Below are positions 28,227-42,298 of a stretch of DNA of 64,000 bases, piece by piece. How positions within the stretch are numbered: the stretch's first letter is position 1; every line of letters starts with the position of its first letter. Source of the stretch: Methylocystis rosea SV97 (GTDB lineage Bacteria > Pseudomonadota > Alphaproteobacteria > Rhizobiales > Beijerinckiaceae). A model generated the notes under the pieces. It searched no databases, had not been told where the DNA came from, and was given only the letters and a program-made list of their open reading frames with translations. Position numbers and translations under genes: made by a program. The DNA is taken from contig NZ_KB889963.1 in NCBI RefSeq assembly GCF_000372845.1, positions 620,001 through 684,000 of the forward strand. The letters run 5' to 3'.

Positions 28227-28352
28227 CCTGAGCTAAGGGCTCACGCAGGGTCGGGTGCGGCGCGATTGGCGCTCTTTCCACAAATCCTCTAATCAGCGCG
28301 GCAATAGCGGCGCTTATGGCGCCTGCGTCCGCCCCAGCCGGTTTTCACGACG

Positions 28353-31300
28353 ATGAACGACGACAGCCCGAAAGGGCCCGATTATTCGAAAAGCCTCTAT
28401 CTGCCGGTCACGGATTTTCCGATGCGCGCCGGCCTGCCGCAGCGCGAGCCGGAAATCCTCAAGCGCTGGGAGACCATCGGCCTGGAGCAAAAGATGCGCG
28501 AATCGGGCGAGGGTCGTCCGAAATTCACGCTCCACGACGGCCCGCCCTACGCCAACGGCAACATTCATATCGGCCATGCGCTCAATAAGATCCTCAAGGA
28601 TCTCGTGACGCGCAGCCAGCGCATGACCGGCAAGGACTGCGTCTATGTGCCCGGCTGGGACTGCCACGGCCTGCCGATCGAATGGAAGATCGAGGAGGAG
28701 AATTACCGCGCCAAGGGCAAGCAGAAGCCCGATTTCACCGATCCAGGCGCCATGATCGCCTTCCGGCGCGAATGCCGCGCCTATGCGGGACATTGGCTCG
28801 GCGTTCAGCGCGAGGAGTTCAAGCGCTTAGGGGTCGCCGGCGATTGGGGCCATCCCTATTCGACGATGGCTTTTCCGGCGGAAGCGACGATCGCGCGCGA
28901 GATCATGAAATTCGCCGCGAGCGGCCTGCTCTATCGCGGCTCGAAGCCGGTGATGTGGAGCGTCGTCGAAAAGACCGCGCTCGCCGAAGCGGAAGTCGAA
29001 TATGAGGATTATACGAGCGACCAGGTCTGGGTGGCGTTTCCGATCCCGCGCGGCGCCGCGGGCGGACTGAGCGACGCGCGCATCATCATCTGGACGACGA
29101 CGCCCTGGACGCTTCCCGGCAATCGCGCGATCTCCTTCTCCTCGAAGATCGACTACGGCCTCTATCACGTCACCCATGCGCCGGAGGGCAATTGGGCGCT
29201 TCCGGGCGCGACTTTCGTCATCGCCGACAAGCTTGCGAGCGAGGCGTTCAAGGCGGCGAAGGTCGAGGGCTACGAGCGTTTGCACGACGTGCCGGCCGCA
29301 ATGCTCGCCGAGCTGATCTGCGCGCATCCGCTTGCGCATCTTGGCTATGATTTCGACGTGCCGCTCTTCGACGGCGAACATGTCACCGACGACACGGGCA
29401 CGGGCTTCGTGCACACCGCGCCGGGCCACGGCCGCGAGGACTTCGACATCTGGATGGCGAACGCGCGCGAACTGCAGGCGCGCAACATCGAGACGCGCAT
29501 TCCCTATACGGTCGACGAGGACGGATTCTATACGAAGGACGCGCCGGGCTTTGAAGGCAAGCGCGTCATCACCGACAAGGGCGACAAGGGCGACGCCAAT
29601 GAGGCGGTCATCGCCGCGCTGGTTCAGGCCGGCAATCTCGTCGCGCGCGGAAAGCTGAAGCATCAATATCCGCATTCATGGCGCTCGAAGAAGCCGGTGA
29701 TCTTCCGCAATACGCCGCAATGGTTCATCGCGATGGATAAGCCGTTTGGCGCGGCGCCTTACCTCCCCCTAGCGGGGAGGTCGGCCGCCGAAGGCGGCCG
29801 GGTGGGGGTTCAAGACGACTCACCCCGCCCCGCATCGCTTCGCGATGCGACCCTCCCCGTCGAGGGGAGGGATAGCGCGAGCATTGAAAGTGTGCGCGCT
29901 AACGCCCCGACGCTTCGCGAGATCGCGCTTGAGGAAATCGCCCGCACGCAATGGACGCCGGCGGCGGGCGAGAACCGCATTCGCGGCATGATCGCCAATC
30001 GTCCCGATTGGGTCGTGTCGCGCCAGCGCGCCTGGGGCGTGCCGATCGCGGTCTTCGTCAAGAAGGGCACGCATGAGCCGCTTGACGACGCGCGCGTCAA
30101 CGCCCGCATCATCGGGGCCTTTGAGAAGGAAGGCGCCGACGCCTGGTACGAAGCAAACGCTTCAGAGCGATTTCTTTCGCCCGATTACAAGGCTGAAGAC
30201 TACGAGAAGATCTCCGACGTTCTCGACGTCTGGTTCGATTCAGGCTCGACCCACGCCTTCACGCTCGAAGATCCGCAGCATTTTCCGATGCTCGCCGGCA
30301 TTCGTCGCAAGCGCGACGGCGGCGAAGACGAGATCATGTATCTTGAAGGCTCCGATCAGCATCGCGGTTGGTTCCATTCCTCGCTTCTCGAAAGCTGCGG
30401 CACGCGCGGCCGCGCGCCGTATGACGCCGTGCTGACGCATGGCTTCGTGCTCGATGAGCGGGGACGCAAAATGTCGAAGTCGCTCGGCAATGTCGTCGCG
30501 CCGCAAAAAATCATCGCCGATTCCGGCGCCGACATCATGCGGCTGTGGGTCGCCGCGTCCGACTATGCCGATGATCTGCGCGTCGGACCCGAAATCCTCA
30601 AAACCTTCGTCGAGCTTTATCGCAAGCTGCGCAACACGAGCCGCTGGATGATCGGCGCGTTGGCGCATTATCAGCCAAATGACGATGCGGCGATGCGCGA
30701 GGCGGGAGAACTCGAGCGCCTTATGCTGCATCGTCTGCATCAGCTCGACAAGTCGATCCGCGCGTCTTATGCGGCCTACGACTACAAGCGCGTCGTCGCA
30801 CTGCTCACCCATTTCATGACGAGCGAGCTGTCGGCTTTTTACTTCGACGTGCGCAAGGACGCGCTCTATTGCGATCCGCCCTCGAGCGTGAAACGCAAGG
30901 CGGCGCTCGCGACCATCGATCGCATCTTCCGCAGCGTCACGACATGGCTCGCGCCGATTCTCGTCTTCACTGCGGAGGAGGCGTGGCTGTCCCGCTTTCC
31001 GAACGCGCAATCCGTGCATCTCGAGCATTTTCCGACCATTCCCGAGGCGTGGCGCGACGACGCGCTTGCAGCCAAATGGGACAAAATTCGCAAGATCCGC
31101 TCGGTCGTCACCGGCGCGCTTGAAATCGAGCGCGCGCAAAAACGCATCGGCTCTTCGCTGGAAACGGCGCCGACCGTTTATGTAGAAGATGAGTCGTTGC
31201 GCGCCGCGCTCGACGGCGTCGACTTCGCCGAAATCTGCATCGCCTCGGATATCCGCGTCTTGCCGGGAGAAGCGCCGATCGACGCCTTCCGCCTGCCGGA

Positions 31301-31475
31301 AGCGCCGGGCGTCGGCGTCGTTTCGCAACGCGCGGCCGGCGTCAAATGCGCCCGCTCGTGGAAATATTTCGATCCCGCAACGGCGGATCCTGATTATCCC
31401 GACGTGACGCCGCGCGACGCGCAGGCGTTGCGCGAGCTTGTCGCGCTCGGCCGCTGGAGCGGGGCAGGCTCGTAA
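28353..31475 (+). CDS. ileS: Isoleucyl-tRNA synthetase with an in-frame repeat insertion
   Basis: Charges tRNA-Ile and edits mis-activated valine. It has 1040 residues, roughly 50 longer than close alphaproteobacterial homologues are expected to be. [14 protein letters not shown] carries the class I HIGH motif, the CP1 editing domain follows, and [10 protein letters not shown] is the KMSKS loop near residue 707. Residues about 467-519, between the end of the editing region (FIAMDKPFG) and [15 protein letters not shown], are encoded by a GC-rich palindromic repeat and look foreign to the family. The reading frame stays open through it. The flippase start follows the stop with no gap. Confidence 0.96.
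29757..29905 (+). repeat. Palindromic repeat inserted in frame within ileS
   Basis: A bipartite palindrome inside coding sequence. Part one (29759-29810) has ACCTCCCC-CTAG-CGGGGAGGT, then CGGCCGCC-GAA-GGCGGCCG, then GGTGGGGGT. Part two (29821-29871) has CACCCCGCCCC, then GCATCGC-TTC-GCGATGC, then ACCCTCCCC...GGGGAGGG. TAGCGCG/CGCGCTA arms flank the tail at 29873-29901. Both parts match the intergenic element at 41754-41877 in inverse order. Confidence 0.85.
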
Positions 31476-32903
31476 GTGAACGTCCTTCTCGCATTTCTGG
31501 CCAATACGATCGTCAATTTCGTCATCGGCCTCACGGTGGCGAAATTTCTCGGCCCCGAGGAATACGGCCGCTTCGCGCTTGCCTTCTCCATCGCGGTGGT
31601 CGTGCAGACGGCGCTCTATGATTGGCTGCGTCTCTCGGCGACGCGCTTTTATTCAAAGCGCACGCGCGACAAAGAGCCGGTGGTGCGCTCGACGCTCGAC
31701 GCGTCCTTCATCGCCGTCACGCTCTTCCTCGCATTGGCGACAGGCATTTATGCGCTTGCGGGGCCGCCGCTCGATTTCGAAACCAATCTCATCCTGCTTG
31801 CGCTGCTGACGTCGGTGGCCAACGGGCTCTTCGACTATTGCACCGCGCTTGTGCGCGCGCGCTTTCATGACCACGCCTATGTGCGCCTCATGCTTGCCAA
31901 GAACGCGCTGTCGCTTGTCCTCATCGGCGGCGGCGCCTTTATTTTTCACTCGGCTGCGGTGGCGCTCGCCGGCGGCGTCGCGAGCCTGTTCGGCACGGTC
32001 GTTCTCGGACGTCGCGCGCTGCTCGATCCTGGCGCCGATATTCGCGCCGCCTCGAGTCAGAATGCGCGTGCGCTTGCGGCCTATAGCGCGCCGATCGTGA
32101 CCGCGCATCTTCTCTATCAGGCGATGCCGCTCGCGGCGCGCTCCATCGTCGCAAGCGTCTTCGGTTTTGCGGAAACCGGCCAGTTCGCGCTGGCGTATGA
32201 TCTCGGCGTGCGTGCGGTGCAGGCGCTCGGTTCGGCGCTCGACGTGCTCTTGTTTCAGATCGCCGTCGCGGCGCATGAACTCCATGGCGTCGATCGCGCC
32301 AAGCAGCAGGTCGCGCGCAACATGGGCATCGTCGTCGCCTTTTTACTGCCGGCGTGCGCCGGCCTCTGGTTCGTCATGCCGTCGATCGAAGCGCTCATCG
32401 TGCCGGCGCAATATCGCGGTCCCTTCGGCCACTACCTCGGCCTGCTGCTTCCGGGACTTTTCGCGATGGGCGTCATTCTGTTCGGCGTCAATCCCGTCTT
32501 TCAGATTGAGAAGAAGACGGCGCCATTGATGGTCGCGGCGCTTGCGGCGGTCGCCTTCGGCCTTGCGCTGCTGCTTTTTCTGCCCTGGGGCGAGGACGCT
32601 TCCAATCTCGCGATCGCGCAAGCCGGCGCCTACATCGCGGCGCTCGTGGCCACGGTCTATTTCGCGCTGCGCACGCAGCCGGTCTGGCCCTCGTTCTGGG
32701 ACATGTTCGCTGCGCTTGTGGCGACGGGGGCGATGTCGCTCGCGCTCACCCCTTTGCGCGAGATGAGTCCGGGCATTTCCACGCTGATTGCTCAGATCCT
32801 GGCCGGAGCGGTCGTCTACGGACTGCTGACCGTCGCCTTCGACATCGCCGGGCTGGGCGATCTCACGACGACGTGGCTCCATCGACGCCTTGCCCGGTCG
32901 TGA
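31476..32903 (+). CDS. Oligosaccharide flippase-family (Wzx/MATE-like) membrane protein
   Basis: It has 475 residues with about 12-14 membrane helices, starting with FLANTIVNFVIGLTVAKFLGPEEYGRFALA, the usual opening of polysaccharide exporters. It probably flips lipid-linked sugars across the inner membrane. The GTG start directly abuts the ileS stop, so it is probably co-transcribed. No glycosyltransferase or polymerase genes adjoin, so the cargo is unknown. Confidence 0.87.
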   Translation: MNVLLAFLANTIVNFVIGLTVAKFLGPEEYGRFALAFSIAVVVQTALYDWLRLSATRFYSKRTRDKEPVVRSTLDASFIAVTLFLALATGIYALAGPPLDFETNLILLALLTSVANGLFDYCTALVRARFHDHAYVRLMLAKNALSLVLIGGGAFIFHSAAVALAGGVASLFGTVVLGRRALLDPGADIRAASSQNARALAAYSAPIVTAHLLYQAMPLAARSIVASVFGFAETGQFALAYDLGVRAVQALGSALDVLLFQIAVAAHELHGVDRAKQQVARNMGIVVAFLLPACAGLWFVMPSIEALIVPAQYRGPFGHYLGLLLPGLFAMGVILFGVNPVFQIEKKTAPLMVAALAAVAFGLALLLFLPWGEDASNLAIAQAGAYIAALVATVYFALRTQPVWPSFWDMFAALVATGAMSLALTPLREMSPGISTLIAQILAGAVVYGLLTVAFDIAGLGDLTTTWLHRRLARS

Positions 32904-32958
32904 CGCGGCCAGTCGGCGTCGCCATATGCTAGGCTAGCGGTCGATAAGGAGCGCGCCA

Positions 32959-33777
32959 ATGGTGATGCCGATCTATGACGACGCGCCGCTGCGCTATTTG
33001 CGGCGGCCGATCGTGAATTGGACGCTGATCGCGCTCAACGTCATCGTATTCCTCGTCGTGCAGAGCGAGATTTTCGGCGATCCGCTGACCGTCGTCCGCG
33101 GCTTCGCGATCATTCCACGCGTGCTCTTCGGCGAGGCCCAGCTCGCCGACTGGATCGTTGGACCGCCGGCTGCGCTGACGCTAGTCACCGCGCTGTTCTT
33201 TCATTCGTCGGTGGTGCACCTCGGCTCGAACATGCTGTTCCTTTACGTTTTTGGCGACAATGTCGAAGACGCCATGGGTTCGCTGCACTATCTGCTGTTT
33301 TATCTTTCCTGCGGCGTCGCCTCCGGCGTGTTCTACATCTACGCCACGCCGCATTCGATCTTGCCGCTCGTCGGTGCGTCGGGCGCGATCTCCGGCGTCT
33401 GCGCGGCCTTTCTGCTGCTCCATCCACGCGCCACGGTCGCGGGAATTTTTCCGCCGCTCTCGCTGGCGCTCGCGCCGATCTATCTTGGCGCCTGGCTCTC
33501 TGGGGCGCGGCCGAGAGCGATTCTGGGGCTGCGGGCGCCGCTGTTTTCTTTTGTCGCCTCCGGCTGGCTATTCGTCGGCGCCTGGATTGTGATGCAGCTG
33601 ATCAACGCCTCCATGGGCGAGGGCGGCGCCGTCGCCTGGATGGCGCATGTCGGCGGCATCGCCGCGGGTCTGGTGCTGACGCCCATCTTCAAGCGCCGTC
33701 GGCACCGGCTTTTCGATAGGAGCGGCCCGCTCACCCCCGCGCCGCGCGCGCAGGACGCCGGCGACGACGCTCCCTGA
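32959..33777 (+). CDS. Rhomboid-family intramembrane serine protease
   Basis: It has 272 residues with about 6-7 membrane helices. GASGAISG at 139-146 holds the nucleophile (Ser141), HLGSNMLFL around 88 is the oxyanion/loop segment, and His230 in MAHVGGIAAG completes the dyad. Cleaves substrates within the membrane; the target is unknown. AAGGAGCG precedes the start at 32946-32953. Confidence 0.92.
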   Translation: MVMPIYDDAPLRYLRRPIVNWTLIALNVIVFLVVQSEIFGDPLTVVRGFAIIPRVLFGEAQLADWIVGPPAALTLVTALFFHSSVVHLGSNMLFLYVFGDNVEDAMGSLHYLLFYLSCGVASGVFYIYATPHSILPLVGASGAISGVCAAFLLLHPRATVAGIFPPLSLALAPIYLGAWLSGARPRAILGLRAPLFSFVASGWLFVGAWIVMQLINASMGEGGAVAWMAHVGGIAAGLVLTPIFKRRRHRLFDRSGPLTPAPRAQDAGDDAP

Positions 33778-33925
33778 TCAATTCGTTCGGCGCGGGCGCT
33801 TTGTTTGACTTGCGCGCGCGCCCCCGCTACCAGACCGCGCGACGGCTTTAGCCAGAGTGGAGCGCGCGCAGGCGGCGTTCCGACACCGTCTCGCCAAAGG
33901 GTCAGAAGGACCAAGGGGTCGCGCG

Positions 33926-34672
33926 ATGAAGATTCTCGTGCCCGTCAAACGGGTCGTCGATTACAACGTCAAGATCAGGGTCAAGGCGGACGGTTCGGGC
34001 GTCGATCTCGCCAATGTGAAAATGTCGATGAACCCCTTCGACGAAATCGCCGTCGAAGAGGCGCTGCGGCTCAAGGAGGCCGGCAAGGCGACGGAAGTCA
34101 TCGTCGTCACGATCGGACCGGCCAAGGCCGACGAGACCTTGCGCACCGGCCTCGCCATGGGCGCCGACCGGGGCATTCTGGTCAAAACCGACGAGACCGT
34201 CGAGCCGCTCGCCGTCGCCAAAATCCTGGCCAAGATCGTCGCCGAGGAACAGCCGCAGCTCGTCATCATGGGCAAGCAGGCGATCGACGACGATTGCAAT
34301 CAGACGGGCCAGATGCTCGCGGCGCTGCTCGGCTGGGGCCAGGGCGCCTTCGCCTCGAAAGTCGAGATGACTGAGGGCGCCGTCGACGTGACGCGCGAGA
34401 TCGACGGCGGGCTGCAGACCGTCAGCTTAAAGCTGCCAGCCGTCGTCACCACGGATTTGCGCCTCAACGAGCCGCGCTACGCCTCGCTGCCCAACATCAT
34501 CAAGGCCAAGAAGAAAGAAGTCGCCGTGAAGTCGCCCGCCGATTACGGCGTCGACATTTCGCCGCGCCTTGAAGTGTTGAAAACCACCGAGCCTGCGAAA
34601 CGCAAGGCGGGCGTCAAGGTCGGCTCGGTCGTCGAGCTCGTTGGCAAGCTCAAGGAAGCGGGAGTGCTTTGA
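33926..34672 (+). CDS. etfB: Electron transfer flavoprotein beta subunit
   Basis: Half of the FAD/AMP heterodimer that passes electrons from acyl-CoA and other dehydrogenases to ETF:quinone oxidoreductase. It has 248 residues from ATG 33926 ([20 protein letters not shown]). The AMP-binding and signature segment ([20 protein letters not shown] to [17 protein letters not shown]) is present. The longer frame lacks conservation upstream. Adjacent to etfA. Confidence 0.97.
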
Positions 34673-34674
34673 AG

Positions 34675-35619
34675 ATGACGATTCTGCTTCTTGCCGAAAC
34701 CGCCGGCGACGCGATCGCCCCGGCGACCGCCAAGGCGCTCACCGCGGCGAAGGAGATCGGCGGCCCCATTCATGTCCTCATCGTCGGGCCCGGCCTCAAG
34801 GGCGCGGCCGAGCAGGCGGCGAAACTCGCCGGCGTCGAGAAGGTCCTCGTCGCAGAAGACGCGTCGCTCGATCATGTTCTGGCCGAGACCGTCGCCGCGC
34901 TGATCGTCTCGCTCGCCGGCGCTTATGACGTCATCATCGCGCCGTCGACCTCGGCGACGAAGAACGTGCTGCCGCGCGTCGCGGCGCTGCTCGATGTGAT
35001 GCAGGTCTCCGACATCATCAAGGTCGTGTCGGCCGACACTTTCGAGCGGCCGATCTACGCCGGCAATGCGATCCAGACCGTGCGCGCGAAGGACGCCAAG
35101 AAAGTGATCACCGTGCGCACCACCGCCTTCGCGGCGGCCCCCGAAGGCGAGGCAGCGCCCATCGAGGCGATTTCGGCGCCCGCCGATCCCGGCGTTTCCG
35201 CCTTCAAGAGCGAAGAGCTGGCGAAGTCCGAGCGCCCGGAGCTCACCTCAGCGCGGATCATTCTTTCCGGCGGGCGCGCGCTCGGGTCGGCGGAGAATTT
35301 CCAGAAGGTGCTGGATCCGGTCGCGACGCGGCTTAATGCCGCGATCGGGGCGTCTCGCGCCGCCGTCGACGCCGGCTATGCGCCAAACGACTTGCAGGTC
35401 GGCCAGACCGGAAAGGCCGTGGCGCCCGATCTCTACATCGCCGCGGGGATTTCAGGGGCGATCCAGCATCTCGCCGGCATGAAGGATTCGAAGGTGATCG
35501 TGGCGATCAACAAGGATGAGGAGGCGCCCATTTTCCAGGTCGCCGACTTTGGCCTCGTCGCCGACCTCTTCACGGCGCTGCCCGAGCTTGAAGCCGAGCT
35601 GGTGAAGATCGGCCGCTGA
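34675..35619 (+). CDS. etfA: Electron transfer flavoprotein alpha subunit
   Basis: FAD-binding partner of EtfB. It has 314 residues from ATG 34675; TTG 34669 overlapping the etfB stop is possible. The C-terminal FAD domain shows [46 protein letters not shown] and [18 protein letters not shown]. It is 2 bases after etfB and 200 bases before the dehydrogenase gene, a common Hyphomicrobiales trio. Confidence 0.97.
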
Positions 35620-35820
35620 CCACAAAAACCGCCGTCGCTTCGGTCCGAAATGGTCCGGCGCGGCGGCTCGGAGCTGGCGGAGCGTCGGCGCTCGGCGCCC
35701 CGCAGGCTCTTTTCTTTGTTTTCTTTGCGAAGGAACGCAAGTTATATTGCACTGCGGCACGCACTCAGCGCGGGCGGGCCGCTTGCTATCCGGCGCGAGC
35801 TTGGCTGACGGTGGTAAAAA

Positions 35821-36702
35821 ATGGGCTTCGAAATTCGCAAGATCGGCGTCATCGGCGCGGGCCAGATGGGCAAGGGGATCGCCCATGTCTGCGCGCTTGC
35901 CGGCTATGACGTCGCCCTGAACGACATTTCGCAGGAACGCATCGACGCCGGCATCGCCGACGTCGCCGCGCAGATGCGACGCGCTGTGGAGCGCGGCCAG
36001 ATCGACGCCTCGGCGGTCGAACCGGCGCTCGAACGCATTTCCGGCGCGCCTAAAATGGCCGACTTCGCCGACGCCGACCTATTGATCGAGGCGGCGACCG
36101 AGGTCGAAGACCTCAAGCGAAAGATTCTGACGGAGCTCGCGCAGTTCGTGAAGCCCGGCGCGATCATCAGCTCCAATACATCATCGATTTCGATCACGCG
36201 CCTTGCCGCCGTCACCGGTCGGCCGGAGCGCTTCATCGGCATTCATTTCATGAATCCGGTGCCGCGCATGCAGCTTGTCGAACTCATTCGCGGCATTGCG
36301 ACCGATGACGTCACTTTCGAGGAGACGAAGGCGTTCGTCGTCAAGCTTGGCAAGACGATCAGCGTTTCTGAGGACTTCCCCGCCTTCATCGTCAACCGCA
36401 TTCTGCTGCCGATGATCAATGAGGCGATCTACACGCTCTACGAAGGCGTGGGCTCGGTCGACGCCATCGACACGGCGATGAAGCTCGGGGCCAACCACCC
36501 GATGGGTCCGCTGCAGCTCGCCGATTTCATCGGCCTCGACACCTGTCTTTCGGTCATGCAGGTGCTGCATGAGGGCCTGGCGGATTCGAAATACCGCCCC
36601 TGCCCTCTGCTCGTGAAATATGTCGAAGCGGGCTGGCTCGGCAAAAAGACGCAGCGCGGCTTCTACGATTATCGCAGCGGCACACCCGTTCCGACGCGCT
36701 AG
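35821..36702 (+). CDS. hbd: 3-hydroxybutyryl-CoA dehydrogenase
   Basis: NAD(P)-dependent (S)-3-hydroxyacyl-CoA dehydrogenase interconverting acetoacetyl-CoA and 3-hydroxybutyryl-CoA. It has 293 residues. The Rossmann motif GVIGAGQMGKGIA is at residues 9-21, SSNTSSISIT and IHFMNPVPRMQLVELI carry the catalytic Ser/His environment, and a helical C-terminal domain follows. Ethylmalonyl-CoA, butyrate-type or PHB-linked metabolism are possible contexts. Convergent with dps. Confidence 0.95.
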   Translation: MGFEIRKIGVIGAGQMGKGIAHVCALAGYDVALNDISQERIDAGIADVAAQMRRAVERGQIDASAVEPALERISGAPKMADFADADLLIEAATEVEDLKRKILTELAQFVKPGAIISSNTSSISITRLAAVTGRPERFIGIHFMNPVPRMQLVELIRGIATDDVTFEETKAFVVKLGKTISVSEDFPAFIVNRILLPMINEAIYTLYEGVGSVDAIDTAMKLGANHPMGPLQLADFIGLDTCLSVMQVLHEGLADSKYRPCPLLVKYVEAGWLGKKTQRGFYDYRSGTPVPTR

Positions 36703-36722
36703 CGTTCGAACGGCCGCCTTTG

Positions 36723-37262
36723 TCAGTGGCCGCCTGGGCCGGCGCCGCGCGCCGCCTCAAACAGGAACCAGGTTCGCTTCTCGGTCTCGTCAAGAAAAGT
36801 TTCGAGAAGGCTCGCCGTCGCGATGTCTTCGTTGTCGTCGCAGACCTTATGGGCGTTGCGCAGCGACTCGGCCATCCCCTTATTGTCGTCGAGCAATTCG
36901 CACAGCATGTCGTAAGGCGAAACAAATTCCTCGTCATTGTCCTTGATGCGGGACATTTGCGCCACCTGCCCGATCGAGCGCAGGGTCGGCTGACCGAGCT
37001 TGCGCACGCGCTCGGCAAGTGGGTCGACGGCGGCGTAGATCTGCGTCGCCTGCTCGTCGAGCAGCAGATGGTAGTCGCGGAAATGCGGGCCGCTCATGTG
37101 CCAGTGGAAATTCTTGGTCTTCATATAAAGCGCGAGGGCGTCGGCGACGAGCTTGTTGACCTCCGCGGCGACCTTCATCGTCGACTGTTTTTCAAGATCG
37201 GTCGGCGTATCCAGCGCCGAACGTTCGGTGTCGGGCTTCATCGGCGTCTTTGTTTTTTGCAT
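36723..37262 (-). CDS. dps: Dps-family DNA-binding ferritin-like protein
   Basis: Dodecameric mini-ferritin that oxidises Fe(II) with peroxide and shields DNA in starvation. It has 179 residues. The ferroxidase centre sits in NFHWHMSGPHFRDYHLLLDE, with His, Asp and Glu ligands in the normal spacing. The N-terminal tail is Lys-containing and could bind DNA. GGAGGCC lies 6 bases before the start (read on the minus strand). Confidence 0.94.
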   Translation of the reverse strand: MQKTKTPMKPDTERSALDTPTDLEKQSTMKVAAEVNKLVADALALYMKTKNFHWHMSGPHFRDYHLLLDEQATQIYAAVDPLAERVRKLGQPTLRSIGQVAQMSRIKDNDEEFVSPYDMLCELLDDNKGMAESLRNAHKVCDDNEDIATASLLETFLDETEKRTWFLFEAARGAGPGGH

Positions 37263-37374
37263 TTGGGTGGGCCTCCTTGCGCCCTGGCTCCAGGCTCAAG
37301 CTCGGGGTGCGCTGCTATTAGCTAGATCGCGCGCGCTGGCGGACCAGATGAAAAATAGAGCAGAGCGCGGAGAT

Positions 37375-38082
37375 TTAGCGGCGGCGGGAAGCGTCGCCTG
37401 TCTGGGGCGACAACAGGTCGGGGCGTCGCGCGCGGGTCAGCGCCAGCGCCTGTTCATGGCGCCATTTGGCGATCCTGGCGTGATCGCCGGAGAGCAGCAC
37501 CTCGGGGAGGGCGCGCCCCTCAAAGTCGCGTGGCCGCGTGTAATGCGGATATTCGAGGAGGCCGGCCTCAAAACTTTCCTCGACGCCGGAAGCTTCTTCG
37601 CCCATCACGCCGGGAATGAGCCGCACGCAGGCGTCGATCAGCGCCAGCGCCGCGATCTCGCCGCCCGAAAGCACGAAATCGCCAATCGACATTTCTTCGA
37701 GCCCGCGGGCGTCGATGATGCGCTCGTCGACCCCTTCGAACCGGGCGCAAAGAATGATCGCGCCGGGGCCTTGGGCGAGTTCGCGCGCGCGCGCCTGGGT
37801 CAGCGGCGCGCCGCGCGGACTCATCAGCAGGCGCGGGCGCGGATCGTCCTTGGGCGCGGCGGCGTCGATCGCCGCCGCCAGCACGTCGGCGCGCATCACC
37901 ATGCCGGGGCCGCCCCCGGCCGGCGTGTCGTCGACGGCGCGATGGCGGCCGAGGCCATGCTCGCGGATCTGCCGCGGCTCAAGCGTCCAGACGCCACGCG
38001 AAAGCGCGTCGCCGGCGAGCGACAGGCCTAAGGGACCTGGAAACATTTCGGGAAAGAGCGTCAGGACCGTCGCGCGGAACAT
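37375..38082 (-). CDS. trmD: tRNA (guanine-37-N1)-methyltransferase TrmD
   Basis: SPOUT-knot methyltransferase making m1G37, which prevents +1 frameshifting. It has 235 residues. [20 protein letters not shown] opens it; [24 protein letters not shown] and [15 protein letters not shown] form the trefoil knot and SAM site. Normally it follows rimM directly; here a plus-strand gene lies between them. Confidence 0.96.
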
Positions 38083-38186
38083 GGTGCGGTTATGGCATGG
38101 CGTTCGCGGAGGCGAGAAGCAGTTTCATTCTTGCTGAGATCAAGCCTCGGCCATAGTGTCGCAGACATTGCGACAGCTTGGGGCCA

Positions 38187-38801
38187 ATGATGAAATTCTT
38201 TCTTCGAATAGGCTTTCTATTGTGGGCTTTCGGCGGCCTCTTCGCGGCGCGCGCGACGCCAATTGACGCGCCGCCAACGCTCACGGTCGGGCAGATGCAC
38301 GGCAGTTGTCAGAAAACCTGTTGGGCCGTGCGCGAGGGCGCGAAGGGCTCCGAGTCGCTGCGCGATTCGCTGACTTTGACCTGCTTGAACGCGTGCTTCA
38401 AGTGCTTCCTGCAACTGCGAAGCTGCAGCCAATCCAGTGCGAACTCGGCGCCGTCAGAATGCGCCGCCGCCTTCCTTCAGTGTTACAAACAGAGCTTCGC
38501 CGAGAGGCTCAAATCAAAACCGCTCGTGAGTTTCGACGGCGGCGATGGCCACAGCCGCGAAATGGCTGTGAAGATCGTGGGCGCGGCCAATTCCCTTGAA
38601 GGGGTTCCGGCGGAGGATTTCTGGATCCAGCTGAAGCATCCCGCCTGGCGAAAAAAGGAGCGGCGCTTCGTCAAAGAGGGCGGAATTTATGACGTCATCG
38701 TTTACGACACGCCGAACGGGCCGCAGACGGTGTGGTTCGACGTCAAGGACTTTTACGTAAAGAATGGCGAGGAGAACTTGCGCCTTTTGGCGCCGAAATA
38801 A
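38187..38801 (+). CDS. Secreted Cys-rich protein of unknown function
   Basis: It has 204 residues from ATG 38187 (ATG 38190 equally likely). A signal peptide (FFLRIGFLLWAFGGLFAARA) is followed by a region with eight cysteines in helical C-x3-C spacing (CQKTC, CLNACFKC, CSQ, CAAAFLQC), then a soluble C-terminal part with alternating charged and hydrophobic residues (VYDTPNGPQTVWFDVKDFYV). I recognise no family. It is on the opposite strand between trmD and rimM, which are usually contiguous, so it is a likely insertion. Weak ribosome-binding site. Confidence 0.72.
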   Translation: MMKFFLRIGFLLWAFGGLFAARATPIDAPPTLTVGQMHGSCQKTCWAVREGAKGSESLRDSLTLTCLNACFKCFLQLRSCSQSSANSAPSECAAAFLQCYKQSFAERLKSKPLVSFDGGDGHSREMAVKIVGAANSLEGVPAEDFWIQLKHPAWRKKERRFVKEGGIYDVIVYDTPNGPQTVWFDVKDFYVKNGEENLRLLAPK

Positions 38802-38823
38802 GCCGAGCGGTGCGCGGCGGGGC

Positions 38824-39366
38824 CTAGTGTAAATCCGGCTCGGCAGAGACCTCCGCCGGCGGCGTGATCACCACGCGCCCTTGAGCGATGTCGACGACCG
38901 GAACGACGGCTCCGGTGAACGGGTAAAGCAGCGATTCGCCGCCGGCGGCTGGCGCAATTTCGAGAATGTCGCCCGCGCCGAAATTGCGCACCGCGACGAT
39001 CGTTCCGATTTCCACGCCATCCGCCGTTTCGGCGCGAAGGCCTATGAGATCGGCGATATAGAATTCGTCCTCTTCCGGCGCGGGGAGCTTGTCGCGCGCG
39101 ACATAGAGTTCGACGCGGTTTAGGGCCTCGGCGCCGGCGCGGTCGTCGACGCCCTCGACTTGCGCGACGAGCATGTCCTTGCCCTGCGGGCGCACGGCGC
39201 GCAGCCTGAACTTGCGCGTCCCGCTTTTATCGGTGAGGCCGTCATAGGCTGCGATCGCCAATGGATCGCTTGTGAAGCTCTGCAGTCGGATCTCGCCGCG
39301 CACGCCATGCGGCGCGCCGAAGCGGCCGAGAAGAACGAGGCTCTTTGTCCTGTCGCCCGCCGTCAT
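38824..39366 (-). CDS. rimM: 16S rRNA processing / ribosome maturation factor RimM
   Basis: Helps assemble the 30S head by binding S19. It has 180 residues. The N-terminal RimM domain begins LLGRFGAPHGVRGEIRLQSF; the C-terminal PRC-barrel has FYIADLIGLRAETADG. Located between rpsP (139 bases upstream, across a repeat) and the inserted secreted protein gene. Confidence 0.95.
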   Translation of the reverse strand: MTAGDRTKSLVLLGRFGAPHGVRGEIRLQSFTSDPLAIAAYDGLTDKSGTRKFRLRAVRPQGKDMLVAQVEGVDDRAGAEALNRVELYVARDKLPAPEEDEFYIADLIGLRAETADGVEIGTIVAVRNFGAGDILEIAPAAGGESLLYPFTGAVVPVVDIAQGRVVITPPAEVSAEPDLH

Positions 39367-39373
39367 TCGATTT

Positions 39374-39485
39374 CCTCATCCTGAGGAGCGAGCGAAGCTC
39401 GCGTCTCGAAGGACGAGGAAATCGCATAGGGCTCCGCCGCCCTCGCGCTTCGAGACGGCTCCTGCGGAGCCTCCTCAGCATGAGG
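39374..39485. repeat. Paired inverted copies of a dispersed palindrome between rpsP and rimM
   Basis: Copy A at 39374-39418 starts CCTCATCCTGAGGAGC and contains GAGC-GAA-GCTC, then GTCTCGAAGGACGAGG. Copy B at 39440-39485 is its inverted relative (CTCGCGCTTCGAGACGG ... CTCCTCAGCATGAGGG). This is a well-known type of intergenic palindrome in Hyphomicrobiales. Transcribed with the operon, the two could pair into a long stem. Confidence 0.8.
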
Positions 39486-39505
39486 GCGAATGCAAGCGCC
39501 CCGCA

Positions 39506-39865
39506 TTACGCCGCCGGCGCTTCCGCCGCGCCTGCTGCTTCAGCCGCCGCGGCGGCGCGCTCCTGCGCCTTCTTCTTGGGCTGCGCCTTCTGCGGATTGC
39601 TGCGCGCTTCGCGCTTCATCACGCCCAGACCATCGAGCAGTCGCGCGACGCGATCCGTCGGCTGCGCGCCTTTCTCCATCCAGGCCTTCGCCTTTTCCGT
39701 GTCGAGCACGAGGCGGTCGGCCGCGTCCTTCTCCTTCAAGGGATCGAAATAACCGATCTTCTCGATGTAGCGGCCGTCGCGCGGCGAGCGCGAGTCGGCG
39801 ACGACGACACGATAGAAGGGACGCTTCTTGGCGCCGCCGCGGGCGAGACGAATTTTAAGAGACAT
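39506..39865 (-). CDS. rpsP: 30S ribosomal protein S16
   Basis: Small-subunit protein needed for 30S assembly. It has 119 residues: the S16 core [26 protein letters not shown] to about residue 82, then an Ala/Lys-rich alphaproteobacterial tail. Lies 60 bases after ffh. Confidence 0.97.
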
Positions 39866-39925
39866 GTTTTCGTTCCTGTTGCGTTGAGGTGAGTGAGGGA
39901 ACCGGTGACGACAGTCGCCGGTTTG

Positions 39926-41464
39926 CTATTTCTTCTTCCCGAAGGGGTTCAGTCCGCTGAGCAAGCCGCCGCCGAGCCCCGGCAGGCTCGGCTTGGCGAG
40001 AAGATCGGGGGGCGGCGCCGCCGGAACGCCGCCGGGCTGGGCTTTCGGCTGTTGCACGCCAAGCTTCGCCTGCAGCTGCTGCAGCTCTTCCTGGGAGGGC
40101 ATTTGCATGCCGGGGCCGAGCCCCATCATTTGCGCCGCCTTGCCCATCATGCCGCCGCCGCGTTTTCCTGCGCCGAAGGACTTCATCAGATCGGCCATCT
40201 GCCGATGCTGCTTGAGGAGCTTGTTGACCTCCTCGACCTTGACGCCGGAACCTGCGGCGATGCGCTTCTTGCGCGAGGCTTTCATCAGATCGGGATTGCG
40301 CCGCTCCCTGGGCGTCATCGAAAGGATGATGGCGCGCTGGCGCCTGACCATCTTGTCGTCGAAACCGGACGCGGCGATCTGATCCTTCATCTTGGCGACG
40401 CCGGGCAGGAGACCCATGATGCCGCCCAATCCGCCGATCTTTTCCACCTGGGCGAGCTGATCGCAGAGGTCCTGCAGATCGAACTTGCCCTTGGCCATCC
40501 GCTCGGCGGCCTTGCGGGCCTGTTCGGCGTCGATCGCCTGGGCGGCTTTTTCGACCAGCGCGACGATGTCGCCCATGCCGAGAATGCGGTTGGCGATGCG
40601 CGTCGGCGAGAATTCGTCGAGCGCGTCCATCTTTTCGCCGACGCCGATGAGCTTGATCGGCTTGCCGGTGACATAGCGCATGGAGAGCGCCGCGCCGCCG
40701 CGGCCATCGCCGTCCATACGCGTCAATACAATGCCGGTCAGCCCGACCCGTTCGTCGAAATTCTGGGCGAGATTGACGGCGTCCTGGCCGGTTAGGGCGT
40801 CGGCGACGAGCAGGATTTCATGCGGCTTGGAGGATGTCTTGATCTCCGCCATCTCCGCCATCAGCGGCTCGTCGATATGCGTGCGGCCGGCGGTGTCGAG
40901 CAGCACGATGTCATAGCCCTGCAGCCGCGCCGCCTCCATCGCGCGCTTGGCGATCTGCACCGGCGTCTGGCCGGGCACGATCGGCAGCGTGTCGACCTCG
41001 ACCTGCCGGCCGAGCACGGCGAGCTGTTCCTGGGCCGCCGGGCGCTTAACGTCGAGCGACGCCATCAGCGTGCGCTTGCCGTGGCGCTCTTTGAGCCGTT
41101 TGGCGATCTTGGCGGTGGTCGTGGTTTTGCCGGCGCCTTGCAGGCCGACCATCATGATGGCGAGCGGCGGCGCGGCGACGAGATCGATCGGCTCCGCGTC
41201 CTGGCCGAGCGTCTCGATCAGCACGTCATTGACGATCTTGACGACCATCTGGCCGGGCGTCACCGATTTGATGACGCCGGCGCCGATCGCGCGGTCGCGG
41301 ACCTTGTCGGTGAAGGAGCGCACGACGTCGAGCGCGACGTCGGCCTCGAGCAGCGCGCGGCGGATTTCGCGCAGCGCCTCGTTGACGTCGGCCTCGGAGA
41401 GGGCGCCGCGCCGTGTGAGCTTGTCGAAAATGCCGGAGAGCTTGTCGGAAAGGCTCTCGAACAT
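39926..41464 (-). CDS. ffh: Signal recognition particle protein Ffh
   Basis: GTPase that binds 4.5S RNA and signal sequences and docks with FtsY. It has 512 residues from ATG 41464 (MFESLSDKLSGIFDKLTRRG), supported by GGGAG upstream. The N domain is at 1-100; the P loop is GLQGAGKTTTT; DTAGRTHID and the TRMDGDGRGG segment follow. The Met-rich M domain ends in a flexible Pro/Gly tail (GGGMMGKAAQMMGLGPGMQM). Heads the ffh-rpsP-rimM run. Confidence 0.97.
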   Translation of the reverse strand: MFESLSDKLSGIFDKLTRRGALSEADVNEALREIRRALLEADVALDVVRSFTDKVRDRAIGAGVIKSVTPGQMVVKIVNDVLIETLGQDAEPIDLVAAPPLAIMMVGLQGAGKTTTTAKIAKRLKERHGKRTLMASLDVKRPAAQEQLAVLGRQVEVDTLPIVPGQTPVQIAKRAMEAARLQGYDIVLLDTAGRTHIDEPLMAEMAEIKTSSKPHEILLVADALTGQDAVNLAQNFDERVGLTGIVLTRMDGDGRGGAALSMRYVTGKPIKLIGVGEKMDALDEFSPTRIANRILGMGDIVALVEKAAQAIDAEQARKAAERMAKGKFDLQDLCDQLAQVEKIGGLGGIMGLLPGVAKMKDQIAASGFDDKMVRRQRAIILSMTPRERRNPDLMKASRKKRIAAGSGVKVEEVNKLLKQHRQMADLMKSFGAGKRGGGMMGKAAQMMGLGPGMQMPSQEELQQLQAKLGVQQPKAQPGGVPAAPPPDLLAKPSLPGLGGGLLSGLNPFGKKK

Positions 41465-42001
41465 GCTGTTCTCCCGCGAGCGCGAAGGCTCCAAAGCAAA
41501 ACGCGCCCGGGGGCGCATCGCGCTGCCGGGCGTTGGCCTGCCGCCTCTCGGGTGGCTCGGCTGTGGTCGGTTTCTCTTTCGAGATTGGAGGAATGGATAC
41601 GCGGGATGGTTTCGCGCGTCAACATCTGGGGGTTATACTCTTACTTCAGAGCAGGAATCCGACGCGAATAGCTAAGCGCGAACTTCACGAATATCGGTCG
41701 CGTTGGTCGGCTTGGCGACTTTGGATCGAGTTGAAAGCTGGGGTTTGCGTATTCCCTACCCCCTGCGGGGAGGGTGGCCCCGCGAAGCGGGGTCGGGTGG
41801 GGGTCATCGCATGCTGGCGCGGTGAGACCCCCCACCCGGCGGTCTGCGACCGCCGACCTCCCCGCAAGGGGGAGGTATTTCCGCTAACTACCGAGCATAG
41901 TCATTCGCTCAATTGATTATGGTTGGCGCGGCGAATGCAGAATGAGCTGTTACGCTGCTACGCGCCGCCATGATGCTCTTCTTATGATTTGAGAGCAGGT
42001 C
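41465..42001. other. Divergent intergenic region ffh / conserved hypothetical
   Basis: 537 bases without a convincing gene; the short frames on both strands lack ribosome-binding sites and coding character. It holds the bipartite palindromic repeat at 41754-41877, and otherwise must carry promoters for ffh and for the gene pair starting at 42002. Confidence 0.5.
41754..41877. repeat. Bipartite palindromic repeat, relative of the one inside ileS
   Basis: First part 41754-41803: CCCTACCCCCTGCGGGGAGGG, then GGCCCCGC-GAA-GCGGGGTC, then GGGTGGGGG. Second part 41827-41877: ACCCCCCACCC, GGCGGTC-TGC-GACCGCC, then ACCTCCCCGCAAGGGGGAGGT. Reverse-complemented, the parts align with the ileS insert in the same order and similar length. 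The variable hairpin in the middle of each part differs in sequence but keeps pairing. Confidence 0.83.
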
Positions 42002-42298
42002 ATGACGCTCGACGCTTTTCTCGCATCGCTGTCCGCATCCGAGCCGCCGGCCCTCCCGCCGCCGGCGCGGGCGCTGTGGTTCGACGCCAAGGGCGACTGG
42101 AACGCGGCGCATAAAAGCGTCGACGACAAATCCGACCCCGACAGCATGTGGGTTCACGCTTTTCTCCATCGCAAGGAGGGCGATCTCTCCAACGCGGCCT
42201 ACTGGTATCGCCGCGCCGGGCGAGAGCCGCAAAAAGCCCCGCTCGAAGACGAATGGCGCGAGATCGCGCAAGCGCTGCTGTCGCAAACTACGCCATGA
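42002..42298 (+). CDS. Conserved hypothetical protein paired with recQ
   Basis: It has 98 residues: an N-terminal MTLDAFLASL, a Pro-rich stretch and a C-terminal half rich in aromatic residues (ALWFDAKGDWNAAHKSVDD, WVHAFLHRKEGDLSNAAYWY). I recall similar small proteins in other Hyphomicrobiales, with no known function. The WNAAH/WYRRAG pattern resembles a single TPR-like helix pair. It overlaps the recQ start by 4 bases (ATGA). Confidence 0.82.
   Translation: MTLDAFLASLSASEPPALPPPARALWFDAKGDWNAAHKSVDDKSDPDSMWVHAFLHRKEGDLSNAAYWYRRAGREPQKAPLEDEWREIAQALLSQTTP

Follow-up and report, generated by a model that had tools for sequence, protein, structure and literature searches.

In-frame palindromic repeats of several classes recurrently occupy one loop of isoleucyl-tRNA synthetase in Methylocystis

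Palindromic repeats within open reading frames are best known from Rickettsia, as Rickettsia palindromic elements (RPEs). RPE-7 (144 bp) is listed in the isoleucyl-tRNA synthetase of R. japonica and is indicated for R. conorii, R. africae and R. felis as well (PMC3767692). That paper favors a single origin for RPE-4/6/7, yet hotspots for unrelated elements are allowed. The GTAG/CGTC REPs are palindromes, often head-to-head dimers, and they also occur in open reading frames, including those of tRNA synthetases in X. oryzae, E. lithoralis and S. alaskensis. In alphaproteobacteria the CGTC type is the prevailing one, apparently without a dedicated transposase, and neither "hotspots" nor "hot spots" is used in the main text of that paper (PMC3733652). 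MITEs such as ERIC/RU-1, YPAL/RU-2 and Correia are read as parts of host open reading frames in two further reports (PMC2229807, PMC10969869). For Methylocystis, the available text of the SC2 genome paper mentions palindromic repeats as CRISPRs and at oriC only (PMC3794950). A literature search that left most subscription papers outside, and is weak for that reason, returned nothing on palindromic inserts in Methylocystis ileS.

The window analyzed here is a stretch of 64,000 nucleotides from Methylocystis rosea SV97, whose genome (G000) has 3.91 Mb. It contains ileS, in which an insert is read in frame as residues 467–519 (Table 1). The other IleS matches in G000 are paralogues with 26–33% identity, among the four of six matches listed. 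The insert sits in a loop between the QWF strand and the next core helix. The loop has 57 residues in this protein and only 7 in the short-loop relative L064, with a range of 7–17 across the short-loop relatives. In the alignment to the solved IleRS structure 8c9e, query residue 461 falls on chain residue 415 and query residue 520 on chain residue 417, so that the aligned blocks are one residue apart. In an AlphaFold model from an alignment of 34 sequences, pLDDT is below 50 at residues 469–514 and about 27 over the insert, while the model mean is 82.6; the insert is thus predicted to be a disordered loop. Assembly or sequencing error was considered as a source and rejected, because an insert or a short loop occurs at the same place in 38 separately assembled genomes. 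One stop was flagged in seven ileS matches; all seven have an uninterrupted frame across the loop and reach the usual C-terminus.

Most of the insert is made of a bipartite palindromic element with two inverted half-elements. The order is outer hairpin, inner variable-stem hairpin and long-range pairing, and then the same parts in reverse. The palindrome has 27-nt arms that are 74% complementary. Folding of positions 29740–29925 gave z = -5.7, and none of 200 shuffles was as good. An Rfam scan of positions 28300–42200 gave no match to the ileS element.

Table 1. Features of the ileS locus and of the related intergenic element (positions in the window)
Feature	Positions	Strand	Basis or remark
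ileS, isoleucyl-tRNA synthetase, 1040 aa	28353–31475	+	above TIGR00392 cut-off
Insert within ileS reading frame, residues 467–519	29751–29909	+	ORF translation, alignment with relatives
Class-A bipartite palindromic element, two inverted half-elements, about 118 bp	29757–29874	+	
Outer hairpin, left half (CCTCCCC/GGGGAGG)	29761–29781	.	fold
Inner variable-stem hairpin, left half (CGGCCGCC gaa GGCGGCCG)	29782–29800	.	fold, class-A alignment
Long-range pairing, GGTGGGG with complementary C-rich stretch, joining the two halves	29801–29829	.	fold
Inner variable-stem hairpin, right half (around CATCGC ttc GCGATG)	29831–29849	.	fold, class-A alignment
Outer hairpin, right half (CCTCCCC/GGGGAGG)	29851–29871	.	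fold
Intergenic element of the same family	41754–41877	.	half-elements 41767–41802 and 41830–41863

The element belongs to a dispersed family. The half-element pattern GGGGAGGN{8,30}GGGTGGGG has 34 matches at 22 places in G000, while the same pattern read backwards, used as control, has none. One match is in ileS, two are at 41767–41863 and 31 are elsewhere. At 12 of the 22 places two half-element matches stand in opposite orientation; the ileS copy consists of one match, in its left half, and a diverged second half that is too altered to match. The intergenic element has the same architecture as that of ileS, and folding of positions 41740–41890 gave z = -7.1, with 0 of 200 shuffles as good. 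The first-pass annotation had described residues 467–519 as encoded by a bipartite hairpin repeat with an intergenic relative at 41754–41877. Both of its edges, 29751 and 29909, are right, and the relative and the dispersed family that it proposed are borne out by these matches and folds. It also called for further copies in open reading frames, and a genome search located them in cobN, which the element crosses in frame, and in glyS-beta. Long open frames were checked at 19 of the 22 places and, apart from ileS, cobN and glyS-beta, the copies are intergenic or read-through by eye.

The 521 bases around the intergenic element have a whole or nearly whole match in G024 and G025 only, among the 38 other genomes of the genus at E ≤ 1e-30. 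A sub-threshold Rfam match to whalefall-1 covers 41828–41878 with E 0.89. The intergenic element adjoins an ffh sRNA (Rfam RF01793) at 41496–41547 on the minus strand, which scores 49.4 bits (gathering score 35). The core of the class B repeat described below also occurs in the window, at 39375–39388.

IleS was matched in 39 genomes of the genus. One of these, G023 (66% complete), has paralogue-like matches only, and the loop was read in 38. An in-frame insert is present in 29 of the 38 genomes, with loops of 23–87 aa when host residues and a tandem duplication are counted, and the other nine have short loops of 7–17 aa. Class labels, junctions and stem fingerprints were assigned by eye from DNA. 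The 29 inserts fall into class A (nine, of which L036 and L041 are A-B composites), class B (seven), class C (five, one of them a half-element), class D (two), class E (one), class F (two) and class G (three). From their sequences, the unrelated families would number about four, plus one nested, rather than seven, because A, C and F have a common plan and D and E have common stems. In an alignment of 46 IleS proteins, 38 of the genus and 8 others, at least 8 extra residues follow reference position 454 in 36 rows, and the next most affected position has them in 4 rows.

The classes are scattered over the tree of the host proteins. On a tree without the loop columns, made by a quick method and with 13 of its 43 inner branches drawn open, the minimum number of class changes is 18 for the 38 genus rows and 21 for all 46, and the starred branches alone force changes for B (6), A (3), C (3) and D (2). 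L031 carries a class A insert and L035 a class B insert; their flanks are 95.3% identical and their inserts are unrelated by eye. The class is the same as that of the nearest relative by flank identity in 18 of the 38 genomes, which fits turnover and fits exchange as well. The first-pass annotation had read the insert as a repeat inserted in frame in a tolerated loop. The repeat and the frame stand, but not a lone insertion, since the site has been recurrently colonized with turnover of classes. That the loop would be tolerant agrees with the short-loop relatives, with the alignment and with the disorder in the model. The same annotation named homologues with this segment as conserved, non-repeat sequence as evidence against it; these were sought and not found, as the relatives carry either palindromic repeats or a short loop.

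Several other features were observed at ileS. Upstream of the palindromes, L032–L035, L038, L039, L042, L043, L049, L054, L055 and L063 carry a tandem duplication of 33 nt of host sequence (about KSIASGFIAMD), which is double in L063. It accompanies inserts of classes A, B, C, D and G and is tied to no single class. In L063 (genome G026) a second, different palindromic pair of 60 bases is nested in the class B element, also in frame. L054 (genome G025) has about 30 extra residues in the CP1 region near query residue 235, not obviously a repeat.

Compared with equal-length windows of their own gene (32–134 windows each), 27 of the 29 genus inserts fold better than every window sampled; the exceptions are L048, with 18 of 67 windows as good, and L062, with 61 of 126. 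The IleS frame is open in 20 of 20 representatives, while 41 of 100 other frames are open. For ten intergenic or other copies in G000, the cobN copy included, 19 of 60 frames are open over 170 bases. The earlier suggestion that the repeat is compatible with coding is thus consistent with the open frames, and the insert would be translated.

Host genomes contain the same repeats elsewhere. The class B core is dispersed in 29 of 39 genus genomes, with no match to the reversed control, and the class D/E stem is found in 33 of 39, with the reversed control at one site in each of two genomes. B and D/E repeats together number 0–16 per genome with a short loop and 1–77 per genome with an insert (Mann-Whitney p = 4e-5, kinship not corrected). 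B repeats (11–55) are present in every one of the nine genomes whose loop is of class B or A-B.

Loops outside the genus were drawn from the 80 top loci listed by a scan, which is not a designed sample, and 75 were counted. Of these, 54 are shorter than 15 aa. The remaining 21 were folded; L139 and L150, which have no loop, as well as L148 and the duplicates L056, L071, L073 and L115 were omitted from the test. Four of the 21 beat every sampled window of the same gene, namely Rhodoplanes Cfx2-03 (L083) and the Mesorhizobium loops L133, L138 and L141. In its own genome the Rhodoplanes insert has 80 matches over both strands; they come from the 40 places scored among 390 candidates. L109 (3 of 134 windows as good) and L135 (2 of 136) also fold fairly well, and Pseudolabrys L101 is marginal (5 of 134). 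L072 was taken by eye for a palindromic insert and has its own state in the tree; this was rejected, as 44 of 120 windows fold as well.

CobN and GlyS-beta behave like IleS, with recurrent inserts at fixed positions. In G000 the cobN gene (L019, above the TIGR02257 cut-off) is crossed by the element in frame, and in the glyS-beta gene (L021, above the TIGR00211 cut-off) palindromic repeats flank a run of 100 N. Loops were read at 30 loci for each protein, from 38 genomes with a CobN match and 37 with a GlyS match. CobN has at least 8 extra residues at position 413 in 18 of 30 rows, in several repeat classes, and the shortest of these extras (e.g. L204) do not look like repeats. GlyS-beta has inserts at position 295 in 8 of 27 rows (L152, L174 and L178 dropped); one is class B-like, one is class C-like and six are of another kind.

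Further observations concern these two genes. The cobN element carries a nested palindrome, in frame, that looks similar to the nested one in L063. The 100 N in glyS-beta, near 1931740–1931940 of G000:C1, are probably an assembly gap, and the gene parts are in different frames across it. Downstream of position 295, between LENELRL and LLEFFIDRL of GlyS-beta (L152–L181), a stretch is replaced wholesale between species. It is a repeat-like segment (GLVPAIH...SGHD) in 12 of the 28 rows where the stretch was found, and other rows have unrelated segments of very different length.

Among the described systems, the resemblance to RPEs proposed in the first-pass annotation is upheld by analogy. RPEs are dispersed palindromes of about 100–150 bp that lie in frame in conserved genes, in exposed places (PMC3767692), and the element in ileS, of about 118 bp, likewise belongs to a dispersed multi-copy palindromic family with copies in frame in conserved genes. 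In-frame copies in conserved genes occur in ileS and cobN of G000 and in glyS-beta of relatives. Unlike the hosts of RPEs, Methylocystis is a free-living methanotroph, and several classes occupy one site with turnover between close relatives. The ileS element may accordingly be called RPE-like, set beside RPEs by its behavior and not filed as one. The Rhodoplanes insert resembles a CGTC REP dimer with the tag present by eye, whereas no GTAG or CGTC tag is seen by eye before the class A stem. Two hairpins in inverted arrangement are reminiscent of REPINs; unlike REPIN/RAYT systems, however, G000 has no detected Y1 transposase domain. PF01797 (Y1, RAYT-type) has no match in G000 and none in 30 of the 39 genus genomes; it matches in the other 9 and in 5 of 14 control genomes. 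Mobilization by RAYT was rejected, as G000 lacks the domain and G037, the genome with most Y1 matches (4), has no counted B or D/E repeats. Like MITEs, the element would be a small non-autonomous repeat within a host open reading frame, but neither a target-site duplication nor a parent transposon was recognized at the Methylocystis inserts.

We consider it highly probable that the ileS insert is a non-autonomous palindromic repeat read in frame as a disordered loop, and that this loop is a hotspot for several classes with turnover. A short repeat would have landed in frame in a permissive loop and would be translated there as disordered, nearly neutral polypeptide. Several palindromic classes would then have entered the same loop, some taking the place of others or inserting into them, and some decaying or disappearing, with the IleS frame always open. 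The supply would be the dispersed repeats of the host genome itself, and the filter would be purifying selection on IleS.

Another possibility, which we hold as tentative, is that the scatter of classes comes mainly from recombination that passed ileS alleles from one species to another, after few original insertions. Each of the classes A, B, C and D is found again in non-sister species within one clade of 18 species, with inner stems the same or nearly the same by eye, and the A-B composites L036 and L041 also point to exchange. Copies of class B differ at 0–3 of 97 bases, not counting the nested 60 bases of L063 and 3 bases of L045, and copies of class C at 0–7 of 131 bases, where flanking third positions differ by 9.5–27.5%. 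Among the listed copies, with at most 22–23 candidates scored per genome, those at least 95% identical are at ileS only, in four genomes for each class, and copies away from ileS reach no more than 86% (B) or 82% (C) identity. A master copy that inserted recently was therefore rejected as the source of the near-identity, as no copy of at least 95% identity is listed outside ileS. However, the flanks do not clearly hitch-hike with the inserts. Flanks of the same class are not clearly more alike than flanks of different classes, even at 0–15 or 15–30 bases from the insert, and no exchange tracts reaching into the flanks were seen, as divergence near the insert is not clearly lower. Trees of the near flanks need 19, 19 and 19 class changes at minimum, as many as the distant stretch with 17. 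Because like copies are listed at ileS only and the flanks have no clear sign of exchange, the near-identical B and C copies appear to go back to shared insertions at ileS with hardly changed sequence. Classes E, F and G, further versions of A, B and C, and the Rhodoplanes and Mesorhizobium inserts, all outside the clade, would still need separate acquisitions.

A less probable reading, which we regard as unlikely, is that the IleS loop keeps a hairpin for function at the mRNA or DNA level, for example a translational pause during folding, so that any palindrome would serve. The variation within inserts bears both on this and on the preferred reading. Class A has no indel over 116 columns in eight species. 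Its variable columns number 7, 4 and 8 at codon positions 1, 2 and 3, compared with 21, 12 and 92 in the flanks; the third-position share is 8/19 in the insert and 92/125 in the flanks (Fisher p = 0.014). Because this codon-position bias is weaker in the insert, amino-acid constraint on it looks relaxed. The paired bases behave differently. Among hand-marked stem columns of class A, 2 of 64 vary. The corresponding counts are 17/52 for the remaining columns of the insert (p = 2e-5) and 92/200 for third positions in the flanks (p = 5e-12); with pairs taken from the predicted fold, the counts are 6/78 paired and 13/38 unpaired. Five groups pooled with predicted-fold pairs give 29/388 paired, 25/118 unpaired and 302/1000 flanking third positions. 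Paired bases are more conserved than the neutral expectation, which speaks against the preferred reading in that plain tolerance does not explain it. The near-constancy of the B and C copies would agree with selection on the hairpin, as would a stem that differs between L049 and L057 of class G by a compensating swap from C-G to G-C. Against it, pairs are less conserved in class G (7/44 variable) and class D (11/92), and 17 of 111 bases separate the two copies of class D. Moreover, no hairpin is required, because many IleS loops are short both inside and outside the genus. Stem conservation may also be general to these repeats, since the stems of the intergenic orthologues L212 and L213 are likewise unchanged by eye (one pair compared of three loci, L214 being in the other orientation). 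Correction of one arm by the other, hairpin selection, or exchange limited to the insert may each account for the hardly changed sequence of the B and C copies. If the hairpin were selected, repeat families would be interchangeable spare parts for it, and selfish repeats would have been recruited repeatedly to the same job.

A single ancient insertion that diverged beyond recognition, as PMC3767692 favors for RPE-4/6/7, is very improbable here. The site is common to the genus, and class B junctions look similar by eye in distant members, which speaks for such an origin. But the A and B inserts that are unrelated within 95% identical flanks led us to reject one old insertion for these two classes, the host genomes contain the B and D/E cores as dispersed repeats, and repeat-poor members tend to have short loops.

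Hairpin inserts in open reading frames are bypassed in some mitochondria, and this general precedent is what speaks for removal of the insert by RNA splicing, by ribosome bypassing or by cutting from the protein, which we find scarcely credible because removal would not need an open frame and the frame is kept across many different inserts in 38 loops.

What is added here to the described systems is the recurrent colonization of one loop of an essential gene by several classes of repeats, with turnover, across a free-living genus. The question of hotspot or one old insertion, as PMC3767692 leaves it, becomes testable with different elements at one loop between close relatives. Within an essential enzyme, the genus provides a natural series of insertions, replacements and nestings, all in frame, from which one can learn how repeats become protein. 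It is also a warning for annotation and phylogeny, as such loops look like variable protein and yet are repeat DNA.
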